Assembly: GCF_030864355.1 (NCBI RefSeq)
Contig: NC_083395.1
Coordinates: 2,046,001-2,110,000, forward strand
DNA: 64,000 bases
Direction: 5' to 3'
Source: Cutaneotrichosporon cavernicola
Taxonomy: Eukaryota > Basidiomycota > Tremellomycetes > Trichosporonales > Trichosporonaceae
The position numbers were made by a program, and so were the translations under genes. This document shows, piece by piece, positions 27,403 to 63,001 of the stretch; the stretch's first letter is position 1, and each line of letters starts with the position of its first letter. The notes below the pieces were generated by a model. The model made no database searches, was not told the DNA's origin, and worked only from the letters and a program-made list of their open reading frames with translations.

Positions 27403-28818
27403 AAAGTCTAGACACGATTCGGCTGCATCCCTTCCCCATCGTTCCGTTCTGTACCCAGCAGCCTTATGCATACGCTTCATGACAATGGTTTGTGCCGTGT
27501 AGCTGCACGTGGGCATGTAGTGAGTGAGGTACGATGTTACTAGGATGAGCCTATGGGGTGTGAGTGAGACTGTTAGGCGGATGGATGTGGAGGCCAAGAG
27601 GTGGTCTGGGTCCACGAAACCCCCCAGACGCTACTGATGGGTGCCGAGCCACTTTTACTTCCACTTCCACGTCGACATCCTCGACAACATTGTGTTGAAC
27701 GAGGAACGATTTCGATGGGTACACTTGACTGTACCGGCCTCGTACGGCTGTGGTTGCTGACGCCGAGTTGTACCTACCTGTGCGTTAATCGGGTGCGAGA
27801 CTGTCGGGCGAGAGACAGGTCGGGGTCAACAGAAGCACCTTGTATTCACATTCCGTTACCATCTTTAAACCTGTGTAACCCTACCAACTTTTGAACACGT
27901 GAACACCCCAGACTGGTGGCGGCTGCAAAAGTGACAGTACGATATGGTCACTATGGTCCGAGCTCGTTTTTCAGTGGCGTGTGTGGGGTTTGCTTACACC
28001 CTCACGGAGACGGATTTCGAACGCCGCCGCCACTGCACGGTGACGAGACACTGAAATGGCTGATTCCTTTTGGAATGGAATCAAACTGGTCAGATCGGGT
28101 GGTGCCTGAACAATCTGCCACTCCACACAAGCCACACAAGCCACACAAAGCAAAGCGGCATGTCGACTTGGCTGATCGTTCAGTTTCCCTTTTCTTTTGT
28201 CAATGAGATCGGTACTTGAGTACTTGAGTGACATGGTGAGATGAACAGCTGGCCCGATACCCTTACCCCAGGTGGATGCGCGCCACCACCTCCCTCAAAC
28301 TGACCGGAGCGGGCGGCTCGGAGGTATCGTGAGTCCTGTTCACCGGGTTGGATTGGGCATCTCGGCGGTGGCGTATCGCATCCCCCCACACAGAGGACCG
28401 CAACCCATGGCTTTGGACATATCCCGCCATCACTATACACCCTCGTACGAGCCGATGTGGGCGCGATCATCCACATACCGTCCAAGACAATGGACGCATG
28501 GGGCACATCACCCAAGTCCGAAGGGAGAGGGAGCAGGGAGCCAAGGGGGGCTGTGGTGGTCACACTCCCCTCAATCTGACCGAACCGCGCGGGGCGGGGC
28601 AGACATACTCAGCCATTGTTCATTCGAGTCAAGTTCTTGGATGCATGGACGTGTTGGGTTGCAAAGTCTGCGATTTTGACGGTACAGTGGAGCCCGATTT
28701 CGCATATAAGCACAACCAGGAGACGCTCTTTAGACCCATCAACAACATCAACTCCTCTTCACAACAGCTCCTCCAGCCTACCCAACCAACCCACCCAACC
28801 CAACCAACCAACCCAACA
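27403..28818. promoter_or_regulatory. 1.4 kb gene-free region upstream of the pheromone gene
   Basis: No convincing gene. It contains short tandem units (ACACAAGCC-type at 28124-28150), an ACAAAG motif at 28145-28150, a TATA-like CATATAAG at 28703-28710 (about 110 bp before the pheromone ATG) and a CCAAC-rich leader (28776-28818). Reading frames across it show no family-like protein. It is the likely regulatory region of the pheromone gene. Confidence 0.5.
28703..28710 (+). promoter_or_regulatory. TATA-like element of the pheromone gene
   Basis: CATATAAG lies about 110 bp upstream of the pheromone start, in otherwise GC-rich DNA. Position and sequence suit a TATA box for a strongly inducible small gene; this is inference only. 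Confidence 0.4.
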
Positions 28819-28911
28819 ATGTCGGCCTTCACCACCGTTTTCGAGCAGCCCAAGAACTACGAGTCGGACGACAACTGGTACCCCCCAGCCCTCTGGTGCA
28901 CCATCGCCTAA
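28819..28911 (+). CDS. Lipopeptide mating pheromone precursor (CAAX)
   Basis: A 30-residue frame that begins MSAFTTVF and ends NWYPPALWCTIA. The final four residues CTIA form a CAAX box, predicting farnesylation of Cys27, removal of the last three residues and carboxyl methylation. The N-terminus closely resembles tremellomycete pheromone precursors, which as I recall start MDAFTAIF in Cryptococcus. Polar residues (about 9-19, EQPKNYESDDN) precede the likely mature C-terminal peptide. A TATA-like box lies upstream and a probable 40-nt intron follows the stop directly. The STE3 receptor gene is 0.5 kb away, tail-to-tail. Small size makes chance occurrence possible in principle. The combination of start motif, CAAX end and receptor neighbour makes the call strong. 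Confidence 0.88.
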   Translation: MSAFTTVFEQPKNYESDDNWYPPALWCTIA

Positions 28912-28951
28912 GTAAGCAACGCAAAACTCAGTTGTCCAAGCTAATTGACAG
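28912..28951 (+). other. Probable 3'-UTR intron of the pheromone gene
   Basis: Immediately after the TAA stop comes GTAAGC. A CTAAT branch-like sequence and a GACAG acceptor follow 40 nt later, the same layout as the coding introns in this window. A transcript would show whether it is spliced. Confidence 0.5.
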
Positions 28952-29417
28952 GCGATCCGCTCACGTGCGCGACCTTCGACGGTCCCCATCGTTCCAATAC
29001 ATTAGTCGCAACGATGCATATATTTAGTCTCTAAACTCCACCTTCTTTCTGCTTCTTGGGTCCTGATATAATTCAGTCATTGAGCCTGGGCTGCCCATTA
29101 GGTCGTAGCGGTAGCATTCATGAAGAATGTCTCGAGCGCGAAGGGAACAGGTGTATGGTTACCCGTCCTTAATCGCCTTCCCTTGATGCTCAGAGGAATT
29201 GCTCCTTCGGGCATTCCCCACTGGTGTTGAATGCCCAACCACCGCGGAAATGTCGACGCACTTGAAAGGGATGAGGGGCCACACTGACGGAGAACGCAGG
29301 TTCCCTGATTATACTGGGGACAATCATCTGCATATATGAACAGTTACGAAGTATGTACGAAGGCATTTATTATAGAAGTAATCTCAGCATCTCAGGTTAC
29401 CAGAACCGAGATCCATC
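28952..29417. other. Interval between convergent pheromone and receptor genes
   Basis: About 470 bp without coding signal, AT-richer than its surroundings. It should hold the two 3' ends. No repeat or RNA gene was recognised. Confidence 0.5.
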
Positions 29418-30614
29418 TCAAACAACCGAGTGCTCCACGGTCACGGCAATGCGAGTTCCACTAGGACAATTCTCTGACAATCTCTCGTCTTTGGCGCCGC
29501 ATCCGCTAACACGACGTTCCTCCTCCCACGCAGGCCCCGTGAGAGTCACAATTGTGGATCCCAGCATCGGGATTTCCACTGTCCTCCTTGTTAGCTCAGC
29601 TTTCATCTCAAACTCACTCTCTGTGCCTCACGTTGACGACGCGCTTGACAAACCGCCACACGTTTAGGTACTGGCCCACAGCGTCTTCACCGAAGCTGAA
29701 GAAGGCGAACACACTCATTGCGTATAGCACAGAGAGGTAGAAGGGCACATCTAGTGTTGTGGCCCCGTTGAAGAACTCTTCAGGGAACTGGGAAACGAGA
29801 CCAAAGTTGCTGTGGGTGCGGTCCCAGCTTGCGGTCGGCTGGAGTTCGCCTGGGTGGCCGACCAGCAGGAAGAGAATGTTGAAGACCGTGGCGAACATCA
29901 ATAGGATGCTATCTGTGACCGCGAGTCCCAGCAGGCGAAGGTAGACACCAGTTGTGAGGCCAGATCCAGAGAGGATTGAGCGAAACTGTGCGCGACGAAC
30001 AAAGAACCAGTGAATGGAGAGAGCTGCTGTCAGTTGGGGACCCGGGTGTTTGCCTCACAGGCGTAAAAGAGAGAGGCACAGGCAATGAGGGTGGGGAGGA
30101 TGAATCGAATTACCAGTGTTGGCCAGGAGCTAACGGAGGGGATCATTGGACCCCACGTCTCCGCGATGTCGTAGCGATGGCCTTGTACTGTGTAATTGAC
30201 GGGCAACATGATGAGAGGGCAGACCACACACAGAAAGAGCTCCTCGGCATAGCGGTACCGCTTCCGCGGTTGATCCAGCACAAGGTTGCGTTTTGGTGAT
30301 GCGACAGAGGCCAAGCGCCTCATCTGAGCAAGAGAGCAAAGCGGGACGGTATACAACAAGAGCATGTGGACACGAGCGCCTGTCGGTAAGATTAGCCCAT
30401 TCGCAGACTTACTGATGTCGCTCCAGATGGGAGCGCTGTCGACGAAGTTGTCGGCCCACACCAAGGTGTTGACCAGAGTCACGAAGTGGGTTAACCACAG
30501 CCAGCCGATGAGACAAACGAGGGGAGCATTGCGAGCCCTCCAGTGCCAGGGAGCTGGGATAAGAAGAAGCACGAGGCAAACAGAGCTCCAAAAAGGATAC
30601 TCGGGACGGCGCAT
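29418..30614 (-). CDS. STE3: STE3-type pheromone receptor (seven-TM GPCR)
   Basis: Plasma-membrane receptor for the lipopeptide pheromone of the opposite mating type. Four exons, 30614-30413, 30379-30059, 30026-29618, 29586-29418 (366 aa). It opens with TM1 (YPFWSSVCLVLLLIPAPWHW), then TM2 and the Ste3 hallmark NTLVWADNFVDSAPIWSDIS. Next come PLCSLAQMRRLASVAS (the canonical pattern is LCINRRL), a charged loop RKRYRYAEELFLCVVCPLIM and TM5 ending LACASLFYASALSIHWFFVR-like residues. RRAQFRSILSGSGLTTGVYL follows, then TM6, TM7 (SVLYAMSVFAFFSFGEDA) and a cytoplasmic tail. The tail after RHRE depends on the last splice (29587-29617). Without it the protein would end at 29614. The start is 216 bp from the end of REI1. 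Confidence 0.9.
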
Positions 30615-30724
30615 GGTGAGTTGGGCAATGTAGAGTAATATGCAGTGGGGGAAATGAGGACAGCGAGTGAGAAGGGGTTTCAATAGGGGACTATGGGGTG
30701 TTGCCACCTTTATGCACCACAGGA

Positions 30725-30730
30725 ACAAAG
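30725..30730 (+). promoter_or_regulatory. ACAAAG element upstream of STE3
   Basis: ACAAAG followed by AGGA, about 110 bp upstream of the STE3 start on the opposite strand. ACAAAG is the core of the HMG-box pheromone response element known from Ustilago (Prf1) and used by tremellomycete Mat2-type factors. The functional link here is inference. Confidence 0.35.
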
Positions 30731-30816
30731 AGGACTCTCTCGAGACGGAGCAGGGTGTAATGTATATTACATAAGAGTATCTGAAAGCTGAGCCTTGAGG
30801 GCACATGCAGCACGCG

Positions 30817-30822
30817 CTTTGT
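30817..30822 (-). promoter_or_regulatory. Second ACAAAG element upstream of STE3
   Basis: CTTTGT on the plus strand, that is ACAAAG in the STE3 sense, about 205 bp upstream of the STE3 ATG and just beyond the REI1 stop. With the copy at 30725 this makes two cores within the 216-bp gap. Confidence 0.35.
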
Positions 30823-30829
30823 TCTCTGG

Positions 30830-32262
30830 CTACTGAACTGCCCAGTTAGTAACATTACCATGAAGGGCGTGAACGTACGGAGGGGGTCCCTGAAGTCTGC
30901 GAGTAAGCTTCGCAACACGGAGAATAGAATCAACTTACGCTTTTGGCTGTTGTGGCGGAAGCCGATCTTGGTGCGGAAGTGCTCCCTTGCCTTCTGGTCC
31001 TTGAAAGACTTGCCCTGCTTCTTCGCCCAGTTAGCCTCCCCGGCGTTGCGCGCTTTGACCACATCGAGGCCGCGCCCAAAGGCACCATGGCCACCAGCCA
31101 CCGGAACCAAAGCAGCGCTCGGATCTGCGAGACGCTGACGAACGGCAGCGACCTTCGCGCGAACAGGATCGTCCGAGTCCATTGGCGCACCGCGCAGTCG
31201 CTGAGCGTAATACACCTTGAGGGAGCGATGACCAAGAACACGACCCGACGGTAGCACCAAGGACAGACCATCACCTGCAATGCGTGGCACCTGTGGTCAA
31301 CTGCGTGCGTTATTATCCACATACCTCCACGCCAAACGCATCATCGCCTCCATCCTCGTCAACATCTTCCCACTCAGACTGGTCCGACGCGAGGCCGCCC
31401 CCGAAATCGTAGAAATCAGCCAGCTCGACACGATCTTCCTCAGTTTCGTAAGCGATCTTGCAGTGGGCCTTGTCGATCATGTGCTTGCGGACGGCGGCGA
31501 GACTGCTAAATTCCTTTCCGCCATTCGGGCAGAACAAGCACAAGTTTCCAATTGCCACCTTCTCACCAAGATACGCAAGCAGTCCGCTCAGGTCAATAAG
31601 AAGGTCGCGGTCGGGGACGAAGAAACTATGCGCTCGTGACATGTGCTCCAGGTTGCTCTGGGCATCTGTGGACCGATGGTTGCAGAACAGACAGTCGTTT
31701 GGGTTGATGCGCCGCCGCGATGCTGCGATACGAGCCTCGATGTCGCTGTCGGCGTCGGCTTCGGCATCCGAATCCACATCGTTGTCCAAATCGCTGTCGA
31801 CGCCTTCGCCAGACATCACCTCCGCGCCACTGCTTGGCCACATGGCTACGTCGCCCTCGTGGTTCCCCTCGTGACCAACATTGTCCAGCAGGGGTGCTGC
31901 CGACGGGCCTTGGTCGGCTTGGTGTAAAGTGTCGCGTGCCAGACTAGCCTCGCGATCCCGGTGCTTCTTGGACAGGACGTGAGAGCGGAATGAGTTCTCA
32001 GACGAGAATGCCTTGCTAATACATCAGCTCTGCGGTTCCCATGTTCTCACTTGCAAGACGAGCAAAACATGCCCCTTGGGTCTGGCCGCACAGCGTTTTG
32101 CTCACGGCGCTCGATGACCTTTTCATTGAAGGCCTGAGCGGCGACAGGAGGAAGGTTCGCCACTCGACGCTTCATGTTGTAGCGATGCCAGTCAGTCCCG
32201 AAATGGGAACGCTGTTCTTCAGCGGTCTCGAAAGCGATTCGGCATGATATGCAGGTGAACAT
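30830..32262 (-). CDS. REI1: Rei1, cytoplasmic 60S maturation zinc-finger protein
   Basis: Probes the polypeptide exit tunnel and releases Arx1/Alb1 from pre-60S ribosomes. Five exons, 32262-32051, 32015-31325, 31290-30939, 30896-30879, 30837-30830 (426 aa). It has four C2H2-type fingers: the N-terminal FTCISCRIAFETAEEQRSHF, a second beginning MFCSSCNKAFSSENSFRSHV, then CLFCNHRSTDAQSNLEHMSR with AHSFFVPDRDLLIDLSGLLA, and LCLFCPNGGKEFSSLAAVRK. An acidic stretch follows. The C-terminus has LVLPSGRVLGHRSLKVYYAQ, ARNAGEANWAKKQ, FRTKIGFRHNSQK. The last two mini-exons (18 and 8 nt) are needed to give the conserved ending HFRDPLLQ. Divergent from DBP10 with 265 bp between. Confidence 0.93.
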
Positions 32263-32527
32263 GGTGGGCTAGAGGGATTGCGATGTAAGAGAGTAATGAA
32301 AATCAAGTATTGATGAGAAAGAGAATGAAGATGAAGAGTTGAGTTGTGAGCCGAGTCAGTTGAAGCTTCACTAATTCTGAATTGGAAACTGATGAGAAAG
32401 CAAAATCACGTGATTCAATATTTGGTTGGCCACTCCTCCACCTCCACTTTGGGGGTTCTCGAAATCTTCGCTGCTTTATCTGTATCTGCCTCCCCTCTTT
32501 CTCACTTCTCTCCCCCCTCACTCCACA

Positions 32528-34982
32528 ATGTCAACACACGACTTCAGAGCTGATTGGATCACTGGCAAAGACAATGCTCCTTCGTCCGATAATCCCAAGA
32601 AGACAAAGTCTTCGGGCGGAACGTGGGCCACGCTCGGTAAGTGATGCATTTTGCAACCAAACTGCACTCGCTCAACTATGAAGGAGTCTCCCAGCCACTC
32701 GCCCGCGCCCTCAATCTTCGGGGTTTCAAGAACCCCACCCCGATCCAGCGGGCCGCTCTTCCTCCAGCCATGGCCAACCCTTCCAAAGATGTTCTCGGGA
32801 TGGCACGCACTGGCTCGGGGAAAACGCTGGCTTACTTGATTCCCCTCATCCAGTCGCTTGGAGGAGCTCGCAAGGAATCCTCAGGCATTCGATCCTTAAT
32901 CCTGTGTCCCAGCCGTGAACTTGCCGTCCAAGTCCTCAAAGTCGGCAAAGACTTGTCGAGAAGCTTGGCCGGGGCCAACAAAGGCGCCCAACCATTGAAA
33001 TGGAGCATCATCATGGGCGGCGAGTCGCTTGATGCCCAGTTTGAGGCAATGTCTGCGAACCCTGATATGTAAGTCGATTGTCGTGCAGAGAGTAATTGAT
33101 CCCAGCGTCATCGCTACTCCTGGTCGCTTGCTCCATCTGGCTGTTGAGATGGACCTCGACCTGCGGCAAGTGCAGGTGGTGGTTTACGATGAAGCTGATC
33201 AGTGAGCGCTTGCCGCTGTATGGTTCTGACTTTAGCTTGTTCGAGATGGGGTTCGAGGTGCAACTGCGCGAGATTCTGCATCGCCTGCCGACGACGCGAC
33301 ACAACTTGCTGTTCTCGGCGACACTTCCAACGACGCTCGCAGAGTTCGCCAAAGCCGGCTTGAACAATCCGGCATTCATCCGGCTGGACACTGAGCATCG
33401 GATTAGCCCCGACCTCGAACTTGCTTTCCTTTCGGTCAAGCCGGACGAGAAAGAGGCGGCACTCCTCGTACTCTTGCGCGAAGTCATCCACATCCCCGTC
33501 GCCAGTACTGCCACGGACGACAGCCCTCGCGCCATCATCTTTGCGTCTACAAAACATCATGTTGAGTATATCTCGACTCTACTCAAAGCGGCGAACTACC
33601 GGACTTCCTACATCTATGGTTCCCTGGACCAAGTTGCTCGCCAGCAGCAACTTCGCCACTTCCGCGACGGGAAGTCGGAGGTACTCGTTGTCACCGACGT
33701 CGCAGCCCGAGGGCTTGACATCCCCGCGATGGGCCACGTCATCAATTTCGACTTCCCGTCGGGAGTGAGGGTCTTTGTGCATCGGGTTGGCCGCACGGCG
33801 CGTGCTGGACAAAAGGGTCACGCCTGGAGCTTGGTCACCCGCGATGACCTGCCATACTTACATGACCTAGAAACCTTCCTGGAGCGTCCCATCGTCTCCG
33901 ACGCAGGCGCTTTCGGTACAGTTCCTCGAGACAGCCTCGAGGCAACTTTGGAGTACATCCTCCACAACTTGGAGACGTCTGAATCCCAACTTGAATCATT
34001 GCGGAGCGTCATGAAGCGTGGTCAGGCAATGTTCGAACGATCCCGGAACAAGGCGAGTCGTGAGGGTTATCGCGCTCTCAAAGCTGGCAAGGAGAGTCGG
34101 AATACGACCCGTACACATTCGGCTTTCCTATCCCTCGAAGAAGAGAACGGGGGGGAAGAAAAGAGGGCGACACTCCTCGCCGCGATCCAATCTTACAACC
34201 CTCACGAGACGATCTTCGAGGTGGGAGCGCGTGGTGGCCAACAAGCAACGGCAGTGGTGATGAAGCAGCGCCGACAGGCGTTGGCTCGGAGTCGGGCGCG
34301 CAGGCAACAACCTCTCGCCTCTGAAGGGGGAGTTGATCTGGGGTTTGATCCAGCCGACACTGATGGCGACGTGAGTGCTATTGCAACACCAAGCCTTGAT
34401 GCCTTGACACTGACAAGCAGATTCACGTTACGAAACCCACCAAGTCTTACCGTGATCCCAACTTCTTCTTGCCCCATGAGAATGTTGAGACAAACCGATC
34501 CAAAGGGTGAGACTTCTTGGTGATGTGTGCGTCCCGGACTAACATAACAGCTACTCCCTCTCCGAAGGGACCTCATTCGCGGAGCAGGCCCGGTCTGCGA
34601 CGATGGATCTGAATGCCGACGATGCAGACCCGCAACGTGCTCAAAAAGCGAGCCAGCTCAAGTGGGACAAGAAGCGGAAGCGGTTCGTCAAGGACACCCC
34701 TGGCGAGGACAACAAGAAGATGATCAGGGGCGAGAGTGGCGCACTGCTTCCCGCCACATTCAAGAGCGGCCGCTTCGCTGAATGGAAGAAGACTGCACAC
34801 CGACTCTCAGGCCAGCGCACTGGGCCGCAGTCTCAAAACTCGGCTGGCCTCGCGAACGCTGAAACCATTCTCAAGGGCCGGCGTGAGAAGGAGAAGGTGA
34901 GTAGTAGCCACACCAATTGCAATGCTAACCGATTTAGCGCCAGCAGAAGAATGGTCGCATTTCCAAAAAGCGTCGGTTGTAG
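32528..34982 (+). CDS. DBP10: DEAD-box RNA helicase Dbp10 (60S biogenesis)
   Basis: Nucleolar helicase in pre-60S assembly. Seven exons, 32528-32636, 32684-33068, 33106-33201, 33236-34370, 34421-34506, 34551-34896, 34938-34982 (733 aa). Helicase motifs are in order: Q-motif region [17 protein letters not shown], Walker [43 protein letters not shown] box VVYDEADHLFEMGF, SAT ([19 protein letters not shown]), then [20 protein letters not shown] and [16 protein letters not shown]. The C-terminal DBP10CT region reads [20 protein letters not shown], then [20 protein letters not shown] and [17 protein letters not shown]. The end is basic ([10 protein letters not shown]). The C-terminal domain is what separates Dbp10 from other DEAD-box proteins. 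Confidence 0.92.
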
Positions 34983-35178
34983 TGGCTGTACAAGAGTGAA
35001 TGAGACTGGTGATTCTTCTGGCTGCAGGCTGTCACGATCAAAGAAACATGAACGAAGAAACATGCAACGCGGTGTCTATTGAATGAATAGCGGGGAAGTC
35101 CGGCTTTAGCGTTGTGGCGCACGGTTGTTTATCTCGAGGGACTACTGGCGATGGAGCTTTGAGACACATTATTTTATC

Positions 35179-35892
35179 ATGGCCATCGACTACTCCAGTC
35201 AGAGCTATTGGCGCGTCCGCCTCTCGAAGGAGAAGGACCAAGGTTTCGAATGGCTCGTCCCTTCCTCCGACGTCTTGTCCACCATCTCCCAGGTTGTCGG
35301 CGACTTGAAATCGACAACTACTCGAATCTCAATCCTCCATTTTGGATGTGGCTCCTCTTCACTTGGCATTGAACTCCAAAGGCATCTCGGTGACCGGGTT
35401 GCAGTCTCAGACGCCGACTACGCCAGTTCAAGCTTGCATTCGCGCGAACCGACCCCCAACTTGTCCGACACGCCTTGGTCCCTTCAAGTTCCTCTTCACG
35501 AGATTGATGTCCTTGACCTGAATTCGTTGAGATCCATCACGCCGGCTGATGGATGGGACGTCCTCGTCGACAAGTCTACAGCGGATGCGATCTCATGTCA
35601 CCCCCCGTTACCCAGCTCATCACCGTCGAATCAAGAGTCTGGAGCAGACCAAGTTGACGCGCTCGACGTCCTTTGCAACAACCTCAGCGCTGTAGCCTCT
35701 CAACATTGCCGATGGGTCAGCGTCTCGTACTCTCCCAGGAGGTTCGACTTCCTGGCACATCGCCCAGACGGAAGGTGGCGAGTGGTCGCCAAAATTCCCG
35801 CGAGGTTGCAGCCGACAACGAGCACCAAGGACGGGCATGTCGTCCATCAACCAGTGACTGGGACATGGGTCTGGGTTCTGGAGCACAGGTAG
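35179..35892 (+). CDS. Class I SAM-dependent methyltransferase, METTL13/EFM-like
   Basis: An intronless frame of 237 aa counted from the ATG at 35179 (MAIDYSSQSYWRVRLSKEKD). The upstream ATG at 35125 adds 18 unlikely residues. The N-terminal YWxxRxxxEKxxxFEWL pattern and motif I ISILHFGCGSSSLGIELQRH match small protein-lysine methyltransferases of the METTL13/CSKMT type. An acidic residue after motif I (VAVSDADYASSSL) and the post-motif block DVLVDKSTADAI agree with this. The substrate is unknown; elongation factors and citrate synthase are targets of relatives. Its stop lies 31 bp from the stop of the convergent LisH/WD40 gene, so the transcripts probably overlap. Confidence 0.7.
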   Translation: MAIDYSSQSYWRVRLSKEKDQGFEWLVPSSDVLSTISQVVGDLKSTTTRISILHFGCGSSSLGIELQRHLGDRVAVSDADYASSSLHSREPTPNLSDTPWSLQVPLHEIDVLDLNSLRSITPADGWDVLVDKSTADAISCHPPLPSSSPSNQESGADQVDALDVLCNNLSAVASQHCRWVSVSYSPRRFDFLAHRPDGRWRVVAKIPARLQPTTSTKDGHVVHQPVTGTWVWVLEHR

Positions 35893-35923
35893 CTTTTCAT
35901 ACCAAGAAGCAGTTTGAGGATAA

Positions 35924-38333
35924 CTACAGGAGCGATCCCACATAGGCGGTCATGAGGGACTTGTTGTGGAGCCCAACAGCCAGCTGTTGGCCGTCGTGTC
36001 GCCAAGCCATTGTCATCTTCAGTTAGTTGTCAAATCAGATCGAATCCTACCATCATCGGCCGGTCACGGGTACTTTGTCGCTCCAGTTCCTCTTCGACTT
36101 CATACTCCTTGAGGACTTCGCCAGTCTGGGGTAAGTTAAGATACGAACATCGTCCGAAACATACCACTACGTCCCAGAGAATGGCCTTGCCATTCCATCC
36201 GCCTCCCGCGAGCACACCCCCGGGGCGAGTCAAGCTTGAGGTTGGTGAGAACGCGATTGAGCCAGTGCCATGTTCAAGGCCAGCCAGAGCGTGGAGACAT
36301 TCACCTGAGCTCGCATCGAACAATTTGACCGTTGAGTCTTGGCCACCCCTAGCGTTAACGAGTTCGAAAACGAGAGCTCACGCTGCGATGATCATTCGGC
36401 CATCTTTACACGTAGGGCCCCATTCGACCGTATTCATGCGCTTGTTGTCGGTGCTGCTGTTGACCACTTGGAGGCGATTGACGCAGTATTCGGATCCTGG
36501 CAACACCGTCATTTGGAAAAACTCGTCCGTCGACGGCTCCTTCTCTCGGGGCTGCTTACTCGGCGAGAGCGAACGGCTTACTGTGCCACGGTCCGCTGGG
36601 TAATGTGGAAGCTTCCAGATCATGATGGATCCATCGTCCGAGACAGACGCAAGTAGGCGTTGTTGGTCACCCTCGCCAGGACGAGCTGGCGACCACTTGA
36701 CCCTTGTTACATCATCTGAGTGGCCTTTGAGGGTGAATCGTGGGCGACGGTCATTGGATCGATAGATGAAGATTGTGTGGTCGTTACCGCCGGACGCAAA
36801 GACATCGTCATCGAGCCAGTCGACATCGTTCACTTCCTTGGTGTGTGACTCGAAGCTCAGTTGCTTGGGTGACTGCAAATCAAAGTTGAGAAGGAACAGG
36901 CAAACTGTGAAGTCGTCCTTGGCGGCCAATAACGAGTTGCCCGAGGGGTTAAATTTGAGAGAATTGATGGTCCCGCGTCCGTAGCTTAGAATGCCTTGCA
37001 ATTGTCCAGAGGGGGTGAAAAGGCGACCGACACCATCGGACGCTTGTCGTCAGCATCTTACCATCCACACGCGTACCTGTCACAAACACTGTCCCATCGG
37101 GATGCCACGCCAGTGCAGTGACGGCCTTCTTCGAACTATCAATCGCCTTGTGGCTGATAGACGTGGGCTTCTGCTGCAATTGGAGGGCGTGGCTGGATGA
37201 ATCCGCGGCCTCCATGAAATGCCACCGCCGAGCAGTTCCATCATTGCTACCGGTCACCAGCACCTCCTTGTCCTTAGGATTCCAGGCGAGGCATGTGACC
37301 TGCGGATGAGGAACTCGCCTGAAAAAAGTCACCTACAGCATCGCGATGCTCCGTCCAGGAGCTTCCCTCGCTTGCAGCAAGGCCCAGGATGCCACTGGAT
37401 TTAGAGCCTCTTGATGCGAGCTTCGGGTCCTTGACATCCTCCGCCTTCGATTTCCTACGATCGTCATCGCGGATCCTTTTGGATGCGGGGGTCGTAATCC
37501 CCGTTTCGCCGGAAGGGATGCTTGCATCCGTTAGTCCATGTCGAGGGCTAGCGGTTCGGCCACTTCGCGAAAGGTCTGCCGCCTTGGCAGTCACCGTGGC
37601 ATCACTGGCACTCTTCCTCTTGCCCTTGCCTATAGCAAGTGGGGATGGTACGTCCATGTCACGAGACGGAGGAGGGGAGTTACCACCATGGTCAGCAGCA
37701 GGAGGTTCTTGTATCTGACGGACTGGAAAGGTGTCTGGACGTCTGGGGGGTGGCGAGGACGACACCCCTGGAACAGACAATTCACCCTCAGGCGAGCAAG
37801 TGTGTGGGACGAGGAGCTGAAACCGGGAGTTACAGGCTGGCATAAACGCGTCCTATAAAGTTAGCGCACAAAGCTGCGATTATGGCCTTGCAGGACATAC
37901 AGGTTCAGTCGTAGTGTGGCGCTCGATCTCTTCCCATCGCAAGGCCTTCCACAGCTTGCGAATCAACTCTCCGCGAGCGATCTTGTCCTGAGGAGCACCG
38001 AAAGTTTCTGACGCTGACCCCCGGGTAGCACCGTTGGTGCGGCTGCTACCAAAGGTGTTGGAAGCAGATCGTTGGGAGGGGGGGACAGGGTACCCAGGGT
38101 TGAACTGTTGGAACAGAGCAGTCGAAGGAAGCGCCGACTCGGATAGGAGAGTGAAAGCCGTGTGCTTGAAGTTGGACTCGAGCAAATACTGGAGTGGTTT
38201 CAGCACATCGAGATGTTGCAGAGCGCGCAATCATACTGACGAGGTAGATGAGAATGTTGATCTCCTCGCTTGTGAGGTGAACATTACCAGGCCCCGCCAA
38301 CTGCCCAATGGCAGGTCCGTTTTCGGGGGCCAT
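35924..38333 (-). CDS. LisH/WD40 corepressor protein, TBL1/Sif2-like
   Basis: Probable subunit of the Set3/SMRT-type histone deacetylase complex. Eight exons, 38333-38241, 38188-37901, 37852-37337, 37299-37077, 37042-36382, 36348-36165, 36125-36051, 36016-35924 (710 aa). The LisH motif is split by intron 1 and reads LTSEEINILIYL then YLLESNFKHTAFTLLSES. A KLWKALRWEEIERH helix and a disordered Ser/Pro/Lys linker lead to WD40 blades: VTCLAWNPKDKEVLVTGSND, VTALAWHPDGTVFVTASDG, INSLKFNPSGNSLLAAKDDF, VNDVDWLDDDVFASGGNDHT, VTRVKWSPA...SDDGSIMIW, a short blade with TVKLFDASSGECLHAL, and MAWRHDGQQLAVGLHNKSLM. This is the Tbl1/Sif2 layout. The last exon is inferred from the WD-like sequence and a good branch/acceptor. 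Confidence 0.8.
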
Positions 38334-39071
38334 GTAGAGTTATGAGGTGATAAACAGTCGCGATGGCCGAAGTGGTAGGAGGCAATCGGTATTGGGGAAA
38401 GGATATGTGAGGAGTTGAGGAAGGAGGGCCCAAGGAAGGACGACTAGACGAAGGAGGGATGGATGGATGAGTGGTTGGGGATGAGGACGAGGATACGGAT
38501 GAGGAAGGAAGCGCACAATCGTACGAGGGCACAGTTAAAGGAGGGTCGGGAGGAGTGGGAAGTGGATGGTGGTAATGATGATAATGATGGTGATGTTGAT
38601 GTTGATGGTTACGGTGATCTGGTGATGATGGGGAGTTGGCAAGCTGGTGGAGGTTAGTTCGGTCTAGATATCTAGCTTGGTGGCCAAATGCCAACTGCTG
38701 CTTACAGTAACGGCCACAATTGTTTATCGCCGTCATGCCGCCGCAGCTGCCACAGCCGCCACAACCACCACACATTCAACTTGTTGACCGCGTGGTTGAA
38801 GCGTGGCTACCCTGGCCATGCAAGCCCTGCATTTCCAGCATCCCCTCTGCACGCGTCTCTTGATGCCACCAGGACCCGGTTGGAACGTTGGAACACGACG
38901 TGAGATCTTGTCACAACTACTTGAACAACTCGCTCACACATCACATCACACATCCCATCGTCATTTCACCACTCCTCACAGCCCTCCCGTGAAGCTCATC
39001 GGTCAACCCTATTTCTCTCTGCCCGCGCCCCCCCTCCTCCTCCTGCCGCTCCCCGTCATCCAAGCCTCATC
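38334..39071. promoter_or_regulatory. Divergent promoter interval, LisH/WD40 gene and TMEM115
   Basis: About 740 bp without a supported gene. It includes a degenerate GATGGTGATG-type repeat around 38565-38625 and CACATCACA-type repeats near 38935-38960. A minus-strand frame over 38284-38775 is His/Ser/Pro low-complexity sequence, not a gene. Confidence 0.5.
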
Positions 39072-40310
39072 ATGCCGCCAATTTCCTTCCTCCCTTTCCT
39101 ACAAACTGTGCCATGGGGCACACGCGTCTTAACCGCGCTCCTCATCTTTGCCTCCCTCACGCAGTTCGTCCTTTCCTCGATCGTTCGTGAAAACTCGTCC
39201 GTCTTGCCCTCATATGGACACGAACTACCCTGGCTGGTACTGGTCCCAAAGACGAGTTGGAAGTTTCCATGGACCCTCCTCACATCTGGCTTCGTCGAGC
39301 TGAATCTCATCGAGGTGAGCAAACACAACTCCGACAATCCCATCACCATCGGTCCTACTTGCTGACATGGTCTGCAGCTCGTCTTCTCTCTTGTCACGGT
39401 CCCTCTGGCATGTCGTTATCTGGAACGACTCTGGGGCATCCGAGAGCTCGCTCGATTCACATGCGTGGTCATCGTGGCGTCCAACATCATTGCGTTTGGG
39501 TTTGCCTGGATCCTCTACATCGTTCTCGGCTCTGATGCGGTCATGTAAGTTGCAGCTACTGCAGGGATCGACTGACAGTATAGCGCAGGCTTGCCGTTCC
39601 ATGGCCTGTCTGCTCTTCAGTCAGGCATTCTGGTGGCGTTTACGCAGATCATCCCAGAGCACCAGATTCAGCTTTTCGGTGTTCTGAAAGCGCGAGTCAA
39701 GGTGAGTGTGGGGTTTCATGACATGTTAGCGTCGCGCTCATACTAACGCCTTAGACCATCCCTGGCGTCTTCCTTCTCGTCTCCAACGTACTCGTTGTGA
39801 TCCTTGGACCGTCTCCATACATCCTGATCCAGTTCGGCTTCTTTGTCGCTTGGGTGTACCTACGCTTCTTCAAGCTGTCAGAGAACGGCGAGTATCGAGG
39901 TGACAGGAGCGAGACGTTCGCTTTCCAGTACTGGTTCCCTCCTATTGTTCGGTGAGCACAAAATTCGTATATGCGAGGATGAAGCTTACCACCTCAGGCC
40001 CTACATTGTCGTCGTTTCCAATCATGTGTTTCACCTCGCGGTGAAGATGCGACTGGTTCAGCCTTGGGAGGACACGATGGGCACGCCCTACGCTGTGCTC
40101 CCTGGTCCAGGCGGCGCCAGGGCGGAGGCCGAGCGCCGACGGTCAGTGCCTCATTCTGCGACATCTAACTGATTCTCCAGTGAGCTGGCCTTGAGGGCTC
40201 TTGATGCTCGTTTGGCCACTTCGTCGCCGGCGCCACCGGCTCCACCTACGACAACGCAAACCCCGGGCACCACCACCGAACCCGCACCCGAAGGTTCTAA
40301 CACTCAGTAG
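39072..40310 (+). CDS. Golgi rhomboid-like membrane protein, TMEM115 family (DUF1751)
   Basis: Predicted multi-pass Golgi protein of the TMEM115/DUF1751 family, related to inactive rhomboids and linked to retrograde transport in animals. Six exons, 39072-39314, 39378-39544, 39584-39701, 39755-39951, 39998-40141, 40181-40310 (332 aa). Family hallmarks are FPWTLLTSGFVELNLIELVF, then TVPLACRYLERLWGIRELAR (pattern GRYLEPxWGxxEL) and GLPFHGLSALQSGILVAFTQ, ending in YLRFFKLSENGEYRGDRSET with FAFQYWFPPIVRPYI. At least five hydrophobic segments are evident. The C-terminal tail is Pro/Thr-rich and presumably cytosolic. Confidence 0.85.
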
Positions 40311-40489
40311 TTGGCAGGTGGAAGCCTCGGGTTCGAACCCTTACGTTGACTGGAGGAGATGAACTTTATTCAACATGAGACGCTTTACCATCGTGACAAG
40401 TCTAATCTATTCATCAAAGTCCATCGGTTACGGGTCAATGTTCTGCATACTGGGAAGAGAGAGCGGTAGATAAGTGTGGTTGACAAGTC

Positions 40490-42693
40490 CTAACATGTCT
40501 CCAGCAGACTGTTCTTCTGTATTGTCAGCGGGTTCGCAATGGCAAACTTACAGGGAAGTTGTAGCCGGCTTGGCTGAAAAGCGTGATGTTCGGGTTGTTG
40601 TACGGCTCGGGATGAGAGTTGATGTACGCCGCTGTGGGGTGGTCCTCAGGGTCGCAACCAAGATAACCGTAGTCGGGGATCTGGTACACACGTACGTAGT
40701 CGATGAGCATGTAAGCTGGCCACTGGAGGTTCTGGAAGTCGACCTGCTGGAAGCCGTTTGACATGCCAAAGTTGATGATCTGAACATTAGCTTATTCACA
40801 GCTGCAGGTTGCTGCGACCACCATAGGCTCACCAAGTACATGGGTTCCTGCGTGATGGGCCGCTGGCTGACACCCGAGAGCGGGTTCGGTCCTGTGGACT
40901 TGGCCTCCATGGTCCACGACTTCTCGTTGCCAGACACCCAGGTAACGTATCCCTTGCTCTCGTCATTCTTGTCGGCGAACACCTCGACACCTGCAGAGTC
41001 AGAGCGATTCGTCAACAATCACCCACCGTAGATGTTGAAATCACCATTGGTGCCAGTGTAAACGCTGTTTTCCACATACACCAAACCTGAGACGGCCTGC
41101 TGATAGACACCGCCCAGGTATGAGTTCCACATGGTGATGTCTGTGGCCCAAATGGTCGCACCCGCTGAAGAGTTGTCGAACTGGTAATCGGCGTCGAACG
41201 GAGCGACCTGCGCAGATTGCGACATCTGACCCCTTCTCCTCGACGTGTCGATTTGGCCCTAAAGTCAGCAAGGACATGGCTGTCTTAACGCACCTCAATA
41301 ACGTCAATCTCTGGCGCTCCCCGCCCTACACCAACATTGGGCCCGGGGTGATCCTCGCCCTTGCATGTGCACGAGGAAAGACGTTGACCCGGAAGGCTGA
41401 TGTGGTTAGCGTACAGAAGCCAGGCTAGCAACTCACAAGGACAACGGATCACCGTCTGACGTCGTCATGCCACCAGGAGGCGTGGTCTGTCCAGAACCAG
41501 CCGGCCAAGTCTGGTTAGGCAGGGTGCCAACGTCGCAAGCGGTGTACGTGTACGGCCAAAGACCGTCGGTAGTGCCGCCGTAACCAGCCCGGCCTAGGTT
41601 ACCAAGAGTCCATACACCGGGCCAGAAGCCACCAATACGATTGTTGCCGGGGAGGGACACGGAGATTTCGAAGTAGTAGCTCCACTGGAAACACATCTGG
41701 TTCCACGACTGCAACATACCGGACTTGAACTGGAGGTCGTTGATGGGCTCCTGCGTCATGGTGATCCGGAGGTTCCCACCCTCCGTGGTAATCGCAGAGG
41801 GGTGGTACCATTCCAGGTCCCTGACAGTCAGTAGCAGCCTAGCGCATGTGTGTGTCATTGCCGAATACTTACACAGTGGGCCAGTAATGCAAATCGCTTC
41901 CGGTCAGTCTTGGAACAACAAAACGAGGGTCAACTTACACTCCAGTCCAGAATGGATCATCGCCAGGGTAGAATGTCCGACCTTCCTTGTTAAACTCGTC
42001 CGAGAAGACGAGGTCGTAACCCTTCCCGTCGTAGCCCACGCGACTGTGAGCCGCCAGAGGCGTGTCTGGGTCGATGAGGCTTGGAAACCCAGGGATCAAC
42101 GGGACTTGGCCAGTGGCATTCGTGCCCCCGAGGTTGAACGCGCCGTTGTTAGTTTGGTGGCGGTCCGTGTAGGTGGTGATAATCGGGTACCCAGCGAAGA
42201 GAGTGATGAGGCAAAGTAGAAGGAGGACAAGGCACCCAATGTTCACGATACCACGCAGAGTGAAGATTGAGCCGCCGCGATCATTCTGTTGCCGTGTCAG
42301 CCAAGGTTCGCTTCCAGTCGCGGGACACACCTTGCGGTCACGCTTGGGGTCTGGGTTGTGGAGATAGTCGTCAGCCTCGGGGTCGTTCCAGCCCCATCCG
42401 TCGCTGGCACTTGATGCTGCTCCACCACGGGTACCGTGGGTAGATGTCGACCTGGGAGCCGACAACCGCGAACCAGACGACAAACGCGAACCAGCAGAGC
42501 CTCCGAGCAAAGATGCAGTTGAGGGGACAGGGTCAGTCGAAGCTGCTGGCCCGTAGCGTCTCGAGGATCGCTGCTACAGTCAGCACGGGATCCTGCCGCC
42601 AGAAAGACTGGCGTAACATACCTGGCTGTAGTCGAGGTTGGGACTACGAGTGCCCGGTGGCAAGAGCGCACTTTGGTCTCCAGAGGCCGACAT
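40490..42693 (-). CDS. KRE6: Kre6/Skn1-type beta-1,6-glucan synthesis protein (GH16-like)
   Basis: Type II membrane glycosidase-like protein needed for cell-wall beta-1,6-glucan. Ten exons, 42693-42622, 42570-42331, 42285-41939, 41896-41873, 41820-41437, 41396-41294, 41258-41027, 40990-40833, 40779-40552, 40516-40490 (604 aa). The cytosolic N-terminus is Ser/Gly/Arg-rich, followed by a TM segment (about 117-138, [20 protein letters not shown]). The luminal domain has [60 protein letters not shown] and the GH16 catalytic signature GAPEIDVIE (Glu about 385 and 390). The protein ends [14 protein letters not shown] as in the family. Exon 4 is a 24-nt microexon encoding part of LHYWPT. Skn1 is equally possible; the two are paralogues in yeast. 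Confidence 0.92.
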
Positions 42694-45358
42694 TGTGTCG
42701 GAGATGGTCAACTGGCTAGTTGCACACGACGCCGAAGGGGTGTTGTGCAACGACTCTGGCCTTGGACACGAAGTTTCGAAAGCGATGTCTCAAAACTCAA
42801 ACGGCAACGTGACTCAAAGTGGACGCCAATTACTATTGTGGGAGAGTGGAGAGCGCACAGAGGTTTGATTGTGGTTCAAACCGCTGCAAGTGCTGGGAAC
42901 GAGGTTGACAGAGGTTGATCAAGGCAGTGTGATGCAGTGCCTTGTATGAGTCGTACGCAGCTGTCCGTGGCAAGGCAAGTCGTGCTGTGTGTGTGTGTAT
43001 AAGTTGGAGTGGTGATGGCGGAGGAGGTAGGGAAAGGGCGAGAGGAGGTTGGGGTTGGTGTTCGAGCGAGGTGATGTTTCGGAAGTGGATAGGGATCTCA
43101 AGTAGAAGGCGGATTGGATAGAAGAACAGAGGATAAGAGTCTAAGAGTTAAGAGACGAGGTGTGGATGACCTGGATGGGAGGATTGAGGATTGAGAGGAG
43201 ATGAGAATCGGGAGTAGGGTTGAATGTGTTGGTTGTTAGGTGTTGAGTTGATGATCAAAGGAGCCTGCGTGACAGAGTGAGGAGGGCCAGGAAGAGGGCA
43301 GTCAGGCAAGGATGACGACTAGTCTACTACGCAAAAGCAGAGGGAAGGAAGGGTGAGAGGCAAGAAGAGAGGACAGGAGGAGAGAGGAGAGAGGAGAGAG
43401 GTGAGAGGAGGGAATGAGGGGGGGGAAGGAGCGAGGAACGAAGGAGCGAGGTAGGGAGAGGTGAGGTGTGCGTGCTGGTTGGTGTGTTGGGTCAACAGGG
43501 TTAGGGGTGTACGGGTGTCGTACTAGGGGCGGTGCAACTCTCTGGCCTCTCAAACTCCAGCGCTGGATATACCGTACTGTTACACGCGCCAAACTCCCCT
43601 ACACCAGTAATCCAACCTTCAAACTGCTATTGTTTCCAACCTAATCAAATTGCCAATCAAAGGGTGTCAGCCAATTCTTATTGATTTATTGAGCGACTGC
43701 GTATTTACCATCTCGAAAGGCTTTTGAAACGTACGGCTCAAAGAGACTTGTAAGCCAAAGCACTTTCCCTGCTTGATGCATGCTAGTTGCCAGCTGCCCA
43801 GTTTGCAACTACCGCCTTGGCAGGGACTCTAATATACTGTAGTTCCGGATTGTAGAGTAGGCCAGTAAGGTACAGTAAGCATGAAACTTGGCACAACATG
43901 TCAAAGGTTTACTCCCCTCGACCCCAGCTTTCCGTTCTGTAGGGCTTTGTTTGAGAAGTCTCCTATCACTTAGCCGCCAATTAGCCAGTTGTATTCTAAA
44001 TCTGTTCCAAAATTAATTTTCATGTTATTTTCCTTTGATGTACTTGATAGCATTGATACCTTGATATAGCTTGATACTTGATGTCGAGAATACTAAGTGA
44101 AAACGTGGCTGGCAAGGGTTGTGGGGATGGACATTGGCCCAGTTTGAGGGGTCTACTGGGAGTGGTGCGAGTATGGCTTCAGAGGTGCAGAGCTTAAGAT
44201 CGAGAGAAAAGGAGATGCACTCGTCCGCCATGGCTGAAGCATGTGATCTTCATGCCAGTATTACCCTGTATATGGCCCTGCATGCCCTGTTACAGTCCCC
44301 CCGTACCCTTTTCCTCCGAATCCTCCCGTGATCCAGTGGCCGGTGGCCAGTGGCCGCTCCCTCTTGTTAGCTGCTGCGCTGTTATGCTGCGTAGCATCAG
44401 CTGTACGGGTGTAACTGTAGGTATATTATTCAAGCTGCACAGGCCGTTCCCCAATTGCCCTTAGAAGTCTCAGGGCTTCAGGATTGAGGGTCATCCAAGC
44501 ATCCAGGGTGGTCATTCCTACTAGCCATTATACTGTAGGTATCACTCCGTTGGATTATGGATTGCCACGTTGCCAGCTGATTGCTTGCATGTGAATATGT
44601 GAATGAATGTGACTGTCTCTCATACTGTGAATAAACAACACGATGATTAGCCCTAAACTTCCCATGTCCCTTTTACTAACCAACTGCAGCATACGGCCGG
44701 GGGGGGGGGGGGGGGGGTAATTGCTGAGTTAGGTTTACAATCCTTTAGAGTAGATGGTAATATGCTTGCTTGAGTCTCGTGAGAACCCAAGACCACACCT
44801 GCTCGTCACCGAATTCACGAACGAGCTTGGCGACTGGTCCGCACATTCTGCACATGATGCGTTCCCATTGCAAGTCATCTAATGGTCTGCGGATCTGCAG
44901 TTCGGCTCCAGGCTGGGTTTACCGTCGTGTAGGGCCTGCAATCACCAGGACAAAGCTGTGTAACAGTGCAGTGGGCATGGGGATTTATTAACCCCACCGA
45001 GTAATGTATTCCAGCCCCGACGCAACGTCGCAAGCTGCAAGGGCTGCACAGTGAGTGGTGTTGGCATAGTTTGCCAATACCCTCTCCTGCCATGAATTCC
45101 AATTCTCCAAGTCGTTGACAGTGTGCATCTGTTCCGTGGTCGCACTTGTTCCGCGAAAGAGGTCTAAGTATGCTTAACGTATCTATTTTTCAACATTACT
45201 ATTCGATTAATCCTATATTCACGTGGTCCCAACACGCGTCGTCCAGCCATGCCAGCCATGTCAGCGAACGTCGTCATTATTGTTAACGGTAGACGACCTC
45301 AGGCTGCCTTCAAGTGTCCATCATCTCGTTTCCTCAATCCAACCTCCAAGCCCACGTC
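42694..45358. promoter_or_regulatory. 2.7 kb gene-free interval, divergent KRE6 and RPN6
   Basis: The longest non-coding stretch in the window. It holds a GA-rich purine tract (about 43369-43440), a run of 19 G residues (44699-44717) and AT-rich DNA around 43600-44100. I saw no protein-like frame, tRNA, rRNA or transposon signal. It presumably contains two promoters and could hide a non-coding RNA. Confidence 0.5.
44699..44717 (+). repeat. Poly-G homopolymer of 19 bases
   Basis: An uninterrupted run of 19 G in the middle of the gene-free interval. Such length is prone to sequencing and assembly error, so the exact count is uncertain. Confidence 0.8.
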
Positions 45359-47045
45359 ATGACCATCCAGACTCAAGGCTTGAGCACTGCGCGCCAGTTG
45401 GAGCAGGCCAACGGGCTCCGGCAGTCCGACCCAGCTGCAGCAGAGGCGGGTTATCGCTCGGTGCTGTCCAAGCAGACCAGTGAGTGATGAGATCTTGCTT
45501 GGCTTACCTCCACAGCCGATGAGCAGGAGCTCAAGGACCAAGAGACAGCTCTCCTCAAACTGGGATCGCTGTATCGTGACGGGAAGTAAGTCGTACGGCG
45601 TTGTTGTCTGCTGACCGCCAGGAAGATGAACGAACTTGCGCAACTGGTCGTTGACTCGCGTGGATACATGTCCACAGTGGCCAAGGCCAAGACGGCAAAG
45701 CTCAGTGAGTCGGCCATGCCTATGAATATTTCTCCTCGCTGACACGTACCTTTCAGTCCGTGCTCTGATCGACCTCTTCCCTCCTTCCTCACGCGAGCTC
45801 CAAATGCAGGTCACGAGTGAGAACATCGAGTGGGCCAGGAAGGAGAAGCGCGTCTTCCTGCGTCAGAGTCTTGAAATCAAGCTTGTTGCTCTGTGAGTCT
45901 TGAGGACTGCGGTTACTGACTCTTTCTCCAGCCACATCGATGCGCAGAATTATCGCCAGGCGCTTACCATGACTGAGGAGTTGCTCAAGGAGCTCAAGCA
46001 GCTTGACGACAAGATCATTCTCACAGAGGTTTTCCTTCTGGAATCGCGTGCCGCCCATGCCATCCAGAACCTTCCTCGCTCAAAGGTACGTGATGAGCAC
46101 CCTGGCACCTTGTTGACAAGACCAGGCCGCCCTGACTTCGGCGCGCACGACTGCCAATTCGATCTACTGTCCTCCTATCCTGCAGGCGCAACTTGACTTG
46201 CAGGCGGGCGCTCTTAATGCGGACGACAAGGACTATAAGACTGGGTACTCGTACTTCTTCGAAGCGTTCGAGGGTTTCATTCAGGTTGACGAGAACGACC
46301 CAAGGGCACTCAGCTCTCTCAAGTACATGTTGCTCTGCAAGATTATGATGGGACTGGTGAGTTATTTATCCCAGATTCTCCTGACTTTTTCAGCCCGACG
46401 ACGTCACGGCGCTTCTGACTATGAAGTCGGCGGCACGTTTTGCTGGCAAGGACCTGGATGCTATGAAGGCAGTGGCTCGTGCTCAAACGGAGCGGAGTCT
46501 GGAGATGTTCAAGACGACTCTCCAGGACTACCAAGATCGTGAGCAAAGGAGACTCGTTATCCACGATTGACGCATATCAGAACTCCACAAGGACCCCCTC
46601 ATCCGGTCCCATCTTTCTGCGCTGTATGACACGCTCTTGGAGCAGAACCTCCTTCGTGTCATTGAGCCGTACTCGTCAGTCGAGCTGTCGTGGATCGCGC
46701 ACGAAGTTGGTCAAGGGCGCGATGTCGTTGAGGAAAAGTAAGTGCAGTCTTGTGACCCTGTTAGGCTGATAGCCAGGTTGAGCCAGATGATCCTCGACCA
46801 GGTATTCTTTGGCGTCTTGAACGAGAAGGCTGGGACTCTGGAAGTCTTTGGGGAAATGCAGTCTGAAGTGAGTCCATTTGAAATGTGGGCGTCGAATGTG
46901 CTAACGAGCAGGGTCTGCTCAGCGGAGCGTACGACACGATGAAGCAGATGGGGAGCGTTATCCAAGCCCTCTATGAGAAGGTAAGGCTTGACAGGCTTTT
47001 GATCCCATGTGCAAGGCTAATGTTCAGGCGACGAGCTTATCCTAG
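45359..47045 (+). CDS. RPN6: 26S proteasome lid subunit Rpn6 (PCI)
   Basis: Lid subunit that braces the 19S particle against the 20S core. Eleven exons: 45359-45479, 45516-45585, 45622-45704, 45757-45892, 45932-46085, 46126-46356, 46394-46538, 46581-46737, 46777-46867, 46912-46980, 47028-47045 (424 aa). The helical repeats include [100 protein letters not shown] and [12 protein letters not shown]. The PCI domain follows, with [20 protein letters not shown], then [20 protein letters not shown] and [20 protein letters not shown]. The length equals the family norm (about 420-435 aa). Confidence 0.94.
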
Positions 47046-47417
47046 ACGACAAGGAGCGATTGTGGTTCAGTAGGTGACTGGCGATGTGGTACATTCCTCT
47101 GTAGATGAGACGACGATGACAACCTGGTATGGGGGCTACTGTCGGTGCTGCATCTATCTGCATGGGACTGGAAGATGTCGCCACGTGGGTTTGGTTCCAG
47201 TGCAGGATGAGCAAATGACAACGAGGTTGCAAGGATGGGGCTCCATGATACCAAGGTTCCAAGGTTGTGCTCTGCGCTTTGACATTCCTCCTCTTACCAC
47301 TCCAACTCGTCAGCGACTGACGACTCTTTCATCTGCTCACACCAATCACCATCTTTTCTATACGTGTCTCTCTTCAAACGCTCCTATTTGCCTTTTATCC
47401 ATCAACACCAATACACC
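47046..47417. promoter_or_regulatory. Interval between RPN6 and ATG7
   Basis: About 370 bp between genes on the same strand. The last ~120 bp are C/T-rich and end in a CACCAAT-like leader before the ATG7 start. Nothing else was recognised. Confidence 0.45.
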
Positions 47418-49869: not shown

Positions 49870-50088
49870 GATGAGTGTGGGGAGGCAGTGGTATGCGTTA
49901 CGTAATGTTTTGTACAGTTTGATCCCGTCTCTGCGTTTCATGTAAACAAAGCCAGGCGCGTCCAGTTTGAGTTGATGCATTCCCATTCCCATCAACTCGC
50001 CACCTCCCATTCTCATCGTCACCATCACGATACACTCGACGCTCAATCGCTCGCTCTACAACCGCAACCCTTTAGCTCCCCACACTCC

Positions 50089-59242: not shown

Positions 59243-59336
59243 TGCCATAGAAACGAGAGTCTCATGTTCCCAATGTACAGATGAAACGAGGCATGAATGA
59301 CCGTCGGAGCTTCAGGCATGAGCCCGAGAACATGAA

Positions 59337-59670
59337 TTACAAGTGGTATCGGTTACTTGGAGTGGACATCATCTCGATGTTCTCATTAGGCGACCGATGG
59401 TCGTGATCCCATACCAGGCCACTATCGTCGTCATAATGGTACTGGTTACGCTGGACACTGTGGAAGCCAGGAGACCCTGCAGTCCGGCTGGGGAAAATGG
59501 CATCCCAGACCTCGGAACGACAAATCTGTTGCCCGATACATGTGGAGAGGAAGCAGTAGATGACAGCCGCCACGCAAACTGTTAGCTAGGCTCTTCAAGA
59601 GGATCCGAATGAAGAGGACGAACCATACGAATATGACGACCACAGAGAAGGCAAACAGAGAGTTGTCCAT
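59337..59670 (-). CDS. Small predicted single-pass membrane protein, unknown
   Basis: Two exons, 59670-59580 and 59476-59337, give 76 aa. The start is MDNSLF, followed by a clear hydrophobic segment (FAFSVVVIFVWFVLFIRILL) and then a polar, His/Asp/Asn-rich tail with HSVQRNQYHYDDDSGLVWDH. The splice uses a weak GTTTGC donor and a TGCAG acceptor, chosen because it joins the membrane segment to the only frame with a protein-like tail. Translation could also begin upstream in the same frame (up to 59895), adding a Ser/Thr-rich extracellular-type region. I do not recognise the family. Confidence in a real gene is moderate and in this exact model low. Confidence 0.4.
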
Positions 59671-60028
59671 TCCTGGACCTTGTGGTGGGTTAGAATTCGC
59701 GTAGGAGCTCGTTACAGAATAGTTTGTCGATATAGTATTCGAGGATACGCGAGGATCAAGGAGAGTCGGTATAGTTGTTAAGAGTTGTAGAGCTAATGCT
59801 TGAGGAGTGCAACTGGCGCAAAGGCGTAAAGACGCACTGGGGCAATGGGGCAATTGGGCACAACAGAAGAAGGTAGGAAACCAGTTGACTGCCACGTGGG
59901 ATCACGTGATTCTCGGTTTGTTGCCGACAACGCAAAAGTTGGTTAACTCCATCACCACCTTGTCATCTTCCCTCGCCTTAAGCCTTCCTTCGCTTGACAC
60001 AACGCACGACGCATCGACATCCATCGCG

Positions 60029-62910: not shown

Positions 62911-63001
62911 TCTCATGCTGGGTTGCGTGCATGTATGTGTATGTGCTTGTACGGCTTTCGCACCGCTTCGTCGAGTGCCAAAGCTTCGTCGCGCCATGTC
63001 C

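Follow-up and report, generated by a model that had tools for sequence, protein, structure and literature searches.

The closest described systems are the fused mating-type (MAT) loci of the Trichosporonales, found in 24 species, where the homeodomain (HD) and pheromone/receptor (P/R) genes lie ~55 kb apart (PMC6730849). The pheromone genes in that study were found unannotated. Of its alleles, A1 combines STE3alpha with SXI2, and A2 combines STE3a with SXI1. In the rare A1* and A2* alleles the HD genes are swapped, and A2* (STE3a with SXI2) has been reported in Apiotrichum gracile and in the hybrid C. mucoides (PMC6730849). STE12 is unlinked to MAT in C. oleaginosum, and in other Cutaneotrichosporon it is located 400–750 kb from MAT or on another scaffold (PMC6730849).

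Here we describe the corresponding region of C. cavernicola. The window, the whole stretch of DNA that was analysed, comprises 64 kb (C3:2,046,001-2,110,000) of a genome of 20.2 Mb in 8 contigs, which was searched in addition. It contains a short pheromone precursor gene next to a gene for an STE3 receptor, and this pair is almost certainly the pheromone/receptor core of a fused bipolar mating-type locus in a haploid Cutaneotrichosporon. A locus of this kind is already described, as the fused Trichosporonales MAT of 2019 (PMC6730849). The words 'pheromone' and 'STE3' have no occurrences in the main text of the genome paper (PMC10568926), and a literature search found no paper on mating type in Cutaneotrichosporon cavernicola. 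The coordinates of the features are collected in Table 1.

Table 1. Features of the locus. Positions are those of the window unless preceded by C3, the contig.
Feature	Position	Strand	Basis or remark
TATA-like element TATAA, ~110 bp upstream of the pheromone ATG	28705..28709	+	consensus likeness only
Pheromone precursor gene, 30 codons, CAAX C-terminus CTIA	28819..28911	+	read from sequence
Predicted 40-nt intron, GTAAGC ... GCTAATTGACAG, immediately after the pheromone stop codon	28912..28951	+	sequence pattern
STE3 pheromone receptor gene, 365 aa	29418..30614; exons 30614-30413, 30379-30059, 30023-29618, 29586-29418	-	introns placed by eye
REI1-like gene, C2H2 zinc-finger pre-60S factor, STE3 neighbour	30930..32262, approximate ends	-	PF12756
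DEAD-box helicase gene, probably DBP10	33096..36600, approximate ends	+	PF00271; PF00270 just below cut-off
Myosin heavy-chain gene, MYO2-like	52929..58731, approximate ends	+	PF00063
TSR1-like ribosome-biogenesis gene	60405..61701, approximate ends	+	PF22298
STE11-like MAPKKK gene, 3′ part	62054..64000, extends beyond the window to ~66.7 kb	-	kinase exon; SAM and Byr2-type Ras-binding domains
Low-GC block, window part	28001..64000		GC 0.547 over 28-88 kb
Homeodomain gene, SXI2-like, outside the window	ATG C3:2127850, 3′ end ~2126.65-2126.83 kb	-	ORF reading, splice by eye

RESULTS

The pheromone precursor gene

A short precursor gene with a CAAX end had been claimed in the preliminary description, and the frame is present as described. 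Starting from the ATG at 28819 on the forward strand, it runs for 30 codons to the terminal CTIA and is closed by TAA at 28909-28911; the translation of window 28819-28911 is MSAFTTVFEQPKNYESDDNWYPPALWCTIA. Both its shortness (30 aa) and its CAAX end (CTIA) are those of basidiomycete lipopeptide pheromone precursors. As expected of a pheromone precursor gene it is located beside a receptor gene, STE3, to which it is arranged tail to tail on the opposite strand, with 506 bp from stop codon to stop codon; this bears out the orientation and the spacing of 0.5 kb given previously.

The TATA-like element is followed by a C/A-rich leader. A longer frame at the same locus is open from an upstream ATG at 28498 (137 aa). 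The start of the 30-codon frame is favoured over this one because of the TATA-like site and the lengths of published precursors, that of C. heveanensis having 39 aa (PMC2873909). Directly after the stop codon lies an intron-like element (28912-28951), which may be a 3′ UTR intron of the pheromone gene. By our own pattern there are 45 starts of similar elements in the 128,000 positions of the two strands of the window (0.00035 per base per strand), so that its placement at this point by chance is unlikely.

The receptor gene

The STE3 gene is read on the reverse strand from the ATG at 30614 to the stop codon at 29418, with four exons as spliced by eye. Its introns are short, at 30380-30412 (33 nt), 30024-30058 (35 nt) and 29587-29617 (31 nt). 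The second of these ends with two neighbouring acceptor AGs (CAGCAG, reverse strand). Splicing to the first gives a protein of 366 aa, which was dropped; the second AG (365 aa) was chosen because relatives have YASL or YAAL at this position. The searches for closest proteins and structures used the 366-aa form, and the trees the 365-aa form.

The STE3 protein is covered by the PF02076 profile in two exon pieces, 3-172 and 169-292 of 292, each above the cut-off. The earlier reading of a complete STE3-type receptor is therefore upheld, with 365 aa and profile positions 3-292. The C-terminal tail AVTVEHSVV, reached via the last intron, resembles the tails of other Tremellomycete receptors. The closest proteins are the STE3 of C. 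aff. cavernicola HIS471 (96% identity over 310 residues), that of C. cavernicola HIS631, which is nearly the same except for splicing differences, and that of C. spelunceum, followed by other Tremellomycete STE3s. The public STE3 models in three Cutaneotrichosporon assemblies disagree with the spliced model presented here. Among solved structures no match to STE3 was obtained at E up to 1.

The HMG-core sequence ACAAAG occurs at 28145, 30725, 30817 and, inside STE3, at 29999, from a total of 28 in the window. The sites near the genes are too few for pheromone response elements to be claimed.

The homeodomain gene

An SXI2-like homeodomain gene is located ~52 kb from the pheromone gene, comparable to the distance of about 55 kb that characterizes HD–P/R linkage in the fused loci. 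Its spliced homeodomain ends with WFQNKRNR and matches PF00046 (E 1e-10), with residues 92-140 aligned to profile positions 6-54 and no net insertion; Homeobox_KN (PF05920) falls under its cut-off. HD2 proteins have a classical homeodomain of 60 residues, while the other class is TALE with three extra residues (PMC8305134). The gene as spliced by eye is thus of the HD2 type (SXI2), having a classical homeodomain without net insertion. With three introns the frame ends at ~2126.83 kb, and with a fourth it would end at a stop codon at 2126653. The by-eye splice places a 12-nt exon (VRTW), at C3:2127367-2127378 on the reverse strand, midway through the homeodomain.

The whole-genome homeodomain profiles did not find this gene, probably because its homeodomain is split by introns; the 12-nt exon may be the reason. 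A regular expression for the third helix, applied to 164 kb, found SXI2 and one further match at 112.4 kb, the context of which is by eye unlike a homeodomain. The expression missed another homeodomain at 4772-4915 and the profiles missed SXI2, so a second HD gene could escape both. The homeodomain at 4772-4915 (reverse strand; PF00046 E 5.7e-6, 211-aa frame) was considered as the HD gene of the locus. It was set aside because its position, 24 kb from the pheromone gene in the other direction, is not within the low-GC block, and because the SXI2-like gene occupies the expected place; it is probably an unrelated homeodomain factor.

The low-GC block and its genes

The pheromone and STE3 genes form the left edge of a low-GC block of ~60 kb. 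The GC content from 28 to 88 kb is 0.547, compared with 0.604 for the adjoining 28 kb on the left, 0.575 for a further 40 kb on that side and 0.582 for 36 kb on the right, and a GC content below that of the flanks is a feature of the fused Trichosporonales MAT. Comparably low values occur elsewhere, in two out of ten 10-kb pieces from the genome (0.547 and 0.551), and one 4-kb piece to the left of the window is below the block value (0.523). Low GC alone is therefore unremarkable, and the block is notable only for its extent and location. Among the 2-kb segments of the window the GC skew is strongest (0.234) at 42001-44000, beside an SKN1/KRE6-like gene.

Also in the block are a C2 protein, another kinase and a STE20-like kinase that has a P21-binding domain and a kinase motif. 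Judged by their domains, STE11-, STE20- and MYO2-like genes are thus placed between HD and P/R, as in the fused MAT loci. The names of the block genes (REI1-, DBP10-, MYO2-, TSR1-, STE11- and STE20-like) are likewise assigned by domains and should be read as putative. STE12 is located on contig C1, and hence on a different contig from MAT (C3). DBP10 and REI1 are genes of the P/R locus in Kwoniella (PMC12510652). A fragment of STE3 from Vanrija albida (P0166) carries the name 'pre-60S factor rei1'; this suggests that the adjacency of STE3 and REI1 is conserved, and that it is the source of the wrong name.

The class of the receptor

Sequence comparisons indicate that the C. cavernicola lineage probably carries the recombinant A2* allele, in which STE3a is linked to SXI2. 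In the tree the receptor falls within a 25-row Tremellomycete clade (97/86) together with the STE3 of C. deuterogattii CBS10090, the mating type of which is MATa (PMC3764205), and the STE3 proteins of Kwoniella P/R a2 alleles, taken as carrying STE3a (PMC12510652); Naganishia lies outside. Three topologies parting the receptor from the STE3a rows were rejected (p-AU 0.0055, 0.017 and 0.034), the groups to be constrained having been picked after the first tree was seen. The two STE3 classes are older than the Filobasidiales split (PMC9210288), and the nested position therefore carries information provided that the rows of Agaricomycetes and Rhodotorula, on which the nesting relies, are a valid outgroup; the root as drawn is the midpoint. 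The tree was built from 43 of 184 rows (the window protein and 183 retrieved). The 141 rows omitted, mostly Agaricomycete receptors, were set aside without one-by-one judgement. They include P0002, which is mis-spliced, and models that are incomplete (P0128, C. bacillisporus) or partial (P0141, Kwoniella).

The receptor could instead be an STE3alpha linked to SXI2, that is an ordinary A1 allele, which we regard as doubtful but not far-fetched. SXI2 is the HD gene linked here and STE3alpha with SXI2 is one of the two usual pairings (PMC6730849), the tree had no labelled STE3alpha row, and the nesting depends on the choice of outgroup and on a root drawn at the midpoint. The STE3a of the congener C. 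oleaginosum was absent among the matches listed (11; 66; best 120 of 172). A T. mesenterica protein (P0136) shares a 15-row clade with the window STE3. The T. mesenterica STE3 has been placed nearer the alpha group (PMC2873909). The P0136 protein (locus tag M231) presumably comes from a different strain than the genome used in that work.

Against an A1 allele stand the 25-row clade that unites the receptor with those of MATa CBS10090 and Kwoniella a2, and the rejection of the separating topologies. The receptor is 40–47% identical to labelled STE3a proteins, compared with 35.1% for the two classes of STE3 in Naematelia sinensis (PMC13085929). The level of identity is a weak guide to class, because the two STE3 of C. 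heveanensis are 54% identical (PMC2873909) and some Agaricomycete receptors reach 38% with the window STE3. We retain A2* as the probable allele.

Chance occurrence and copy number

It is very unlikely that the 30 codons form a CAAX frame by chance and that the true pheromone gene is located elsewhere. Frames of this kind do occur. The consensus M-X(15-60)-C-[ILMVST]-[ILMVST]-X-stop, taken from the 2019 Trichosporonales study (PMC6730849), has two matches in the 64-kb window and four in 164 kb including the window, three of them other than the present frame, with three more in 100 kb drawn from other parts of the genome. One of the matches other than the present frame, at 62915 and ending CLLQ, is likewise within the low-GC block, opposite the STE11-like gene. 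However, the frame discussed here is separated from STE3 by 506 bp, is preceded by a TATA-like site and a plausible leader, and is the only one of the seven distinct matches to start M-x-A-F-T. Moreover its CTIA end is similar to those of the C. heveanensis and C. neoformans precursors, CIIA or CVIA (PMC2873909).

Searched in translation at E up to 10, the whole genome gave a single pheromone match and thus no second copy, though a diverged copy could escape. One STE3 gene was detected in the genome by the PF02076 profile, in two exon pieces. Both copy numbers are lower bounds, since the genome searches score best candidates only. That the STE3 is a non-mating receptor paralogue like C. neoformans CPR2 is extremely improbable: STE3-like receptors do occur outside MAT in C. 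neoformans and C. gattii (Cpr2, which serves as outgroup in PMC9210288), but the present one is the sole STE3 detected, adjoins the pheromone gene and is linked to the homeodomain gene and to STE11- and STE20-like genes. The proposal of a P/R mating-type core made in the preliminary description is supported by the single detected STE3 and by the low-GC block with its MYO2-, STE11- and STE20-like genes and the homeodomain gene.

DISCUSSION

The steps of pheromone processing and reception, and of HD pairing, are established for basidiomycetes. By analogy, the cysteine of CTIA in the 30-residue precursor would receive a farnesyl group, and the precursor would be trimmed and methylated. It would then be cleaved before a glutamate, perhaps yielding a mature peptide of 13 residues, ESDDNWYPPALWC. 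This peptide is proposed because tremerogen a-13 begins with a glutamate that is conserved among Cryptococcus pheromones (PMC2873909). The exported pheromone would be bound by the receptor on cells of the opposite mating type. The neighbouring STE3 would sense the pheromone of the partner and signal via a STE20–STE11 cascade, the genes of which lie in this block. Once the cells have fused, the linked homeodomain protein would form a pair with its partner protein from the other parent.

The analysis supplies the MAT core for C. cavernicola, including its short pheromone gene and a model of the spliced STE3. It is only the probable STE3a–SXI2 pairing that may interest specialists. We found no report of an A2* pairing in the C. 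cavernicola lineage in our literature search, which included the main text of the genome paper (PMC10568926). If A2* is correct, the pairing is the same as that of Cryptococcus MATa, and provides a further case of recombination between HD and P/R alleles in a fused locus, with a bearing on the question whether such loci do suppress recombination. If it is also shared by close relatives, A2* would be lineage-wide in a non-hybrid Cutaneotrichosporon and not a one-off. Crossing over beside the HD gene would then have repeatedly reshuffled the mating-type alleles of the Trichosporonales.

The locus closely resembles the fused MAT of the Trichosporonales as described (PMC6730849), with one STE3, a single pheromone gene nearby, an HD gene at a distance of ~50–55 kb with STE11-, STE20- and MYO2-like genes in between, and a lowered GC content in the block. 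STE12 is away from MAT, as in the Cutaneotrichosporon of that study. It differs in that C. cavernicola is not among the 29 isolates tabulated there, and in that the probable combination of STE3a and SXI2 corresponds to the rare A2* and not to the usual A1 or A2 (PMC6730849). The likely STE3a-class receptor and SXI2, with STE11-, STE20- and MYO2-like genes in the block, recall MATa of the pathogenic Cryptococcus. Unlike the latter, where fusion was an independent event (PMC6730849), there is here one detected pheromone gene, STE12 is unlinked, and the block extends over ~60 kb compared with >100 kb. Kwoniella is tetrapolar (PMC6730849) with STE12 in the P/R locus (PMC12510652), whereas in the present genome P/R is linked to HD, and STE12 lies on another contig. 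Yet the core itself is like the Kwoniella P/R locus, a single pheromone gene and STE3 accompanied by REI1 and DBP10 (PMC12510652).
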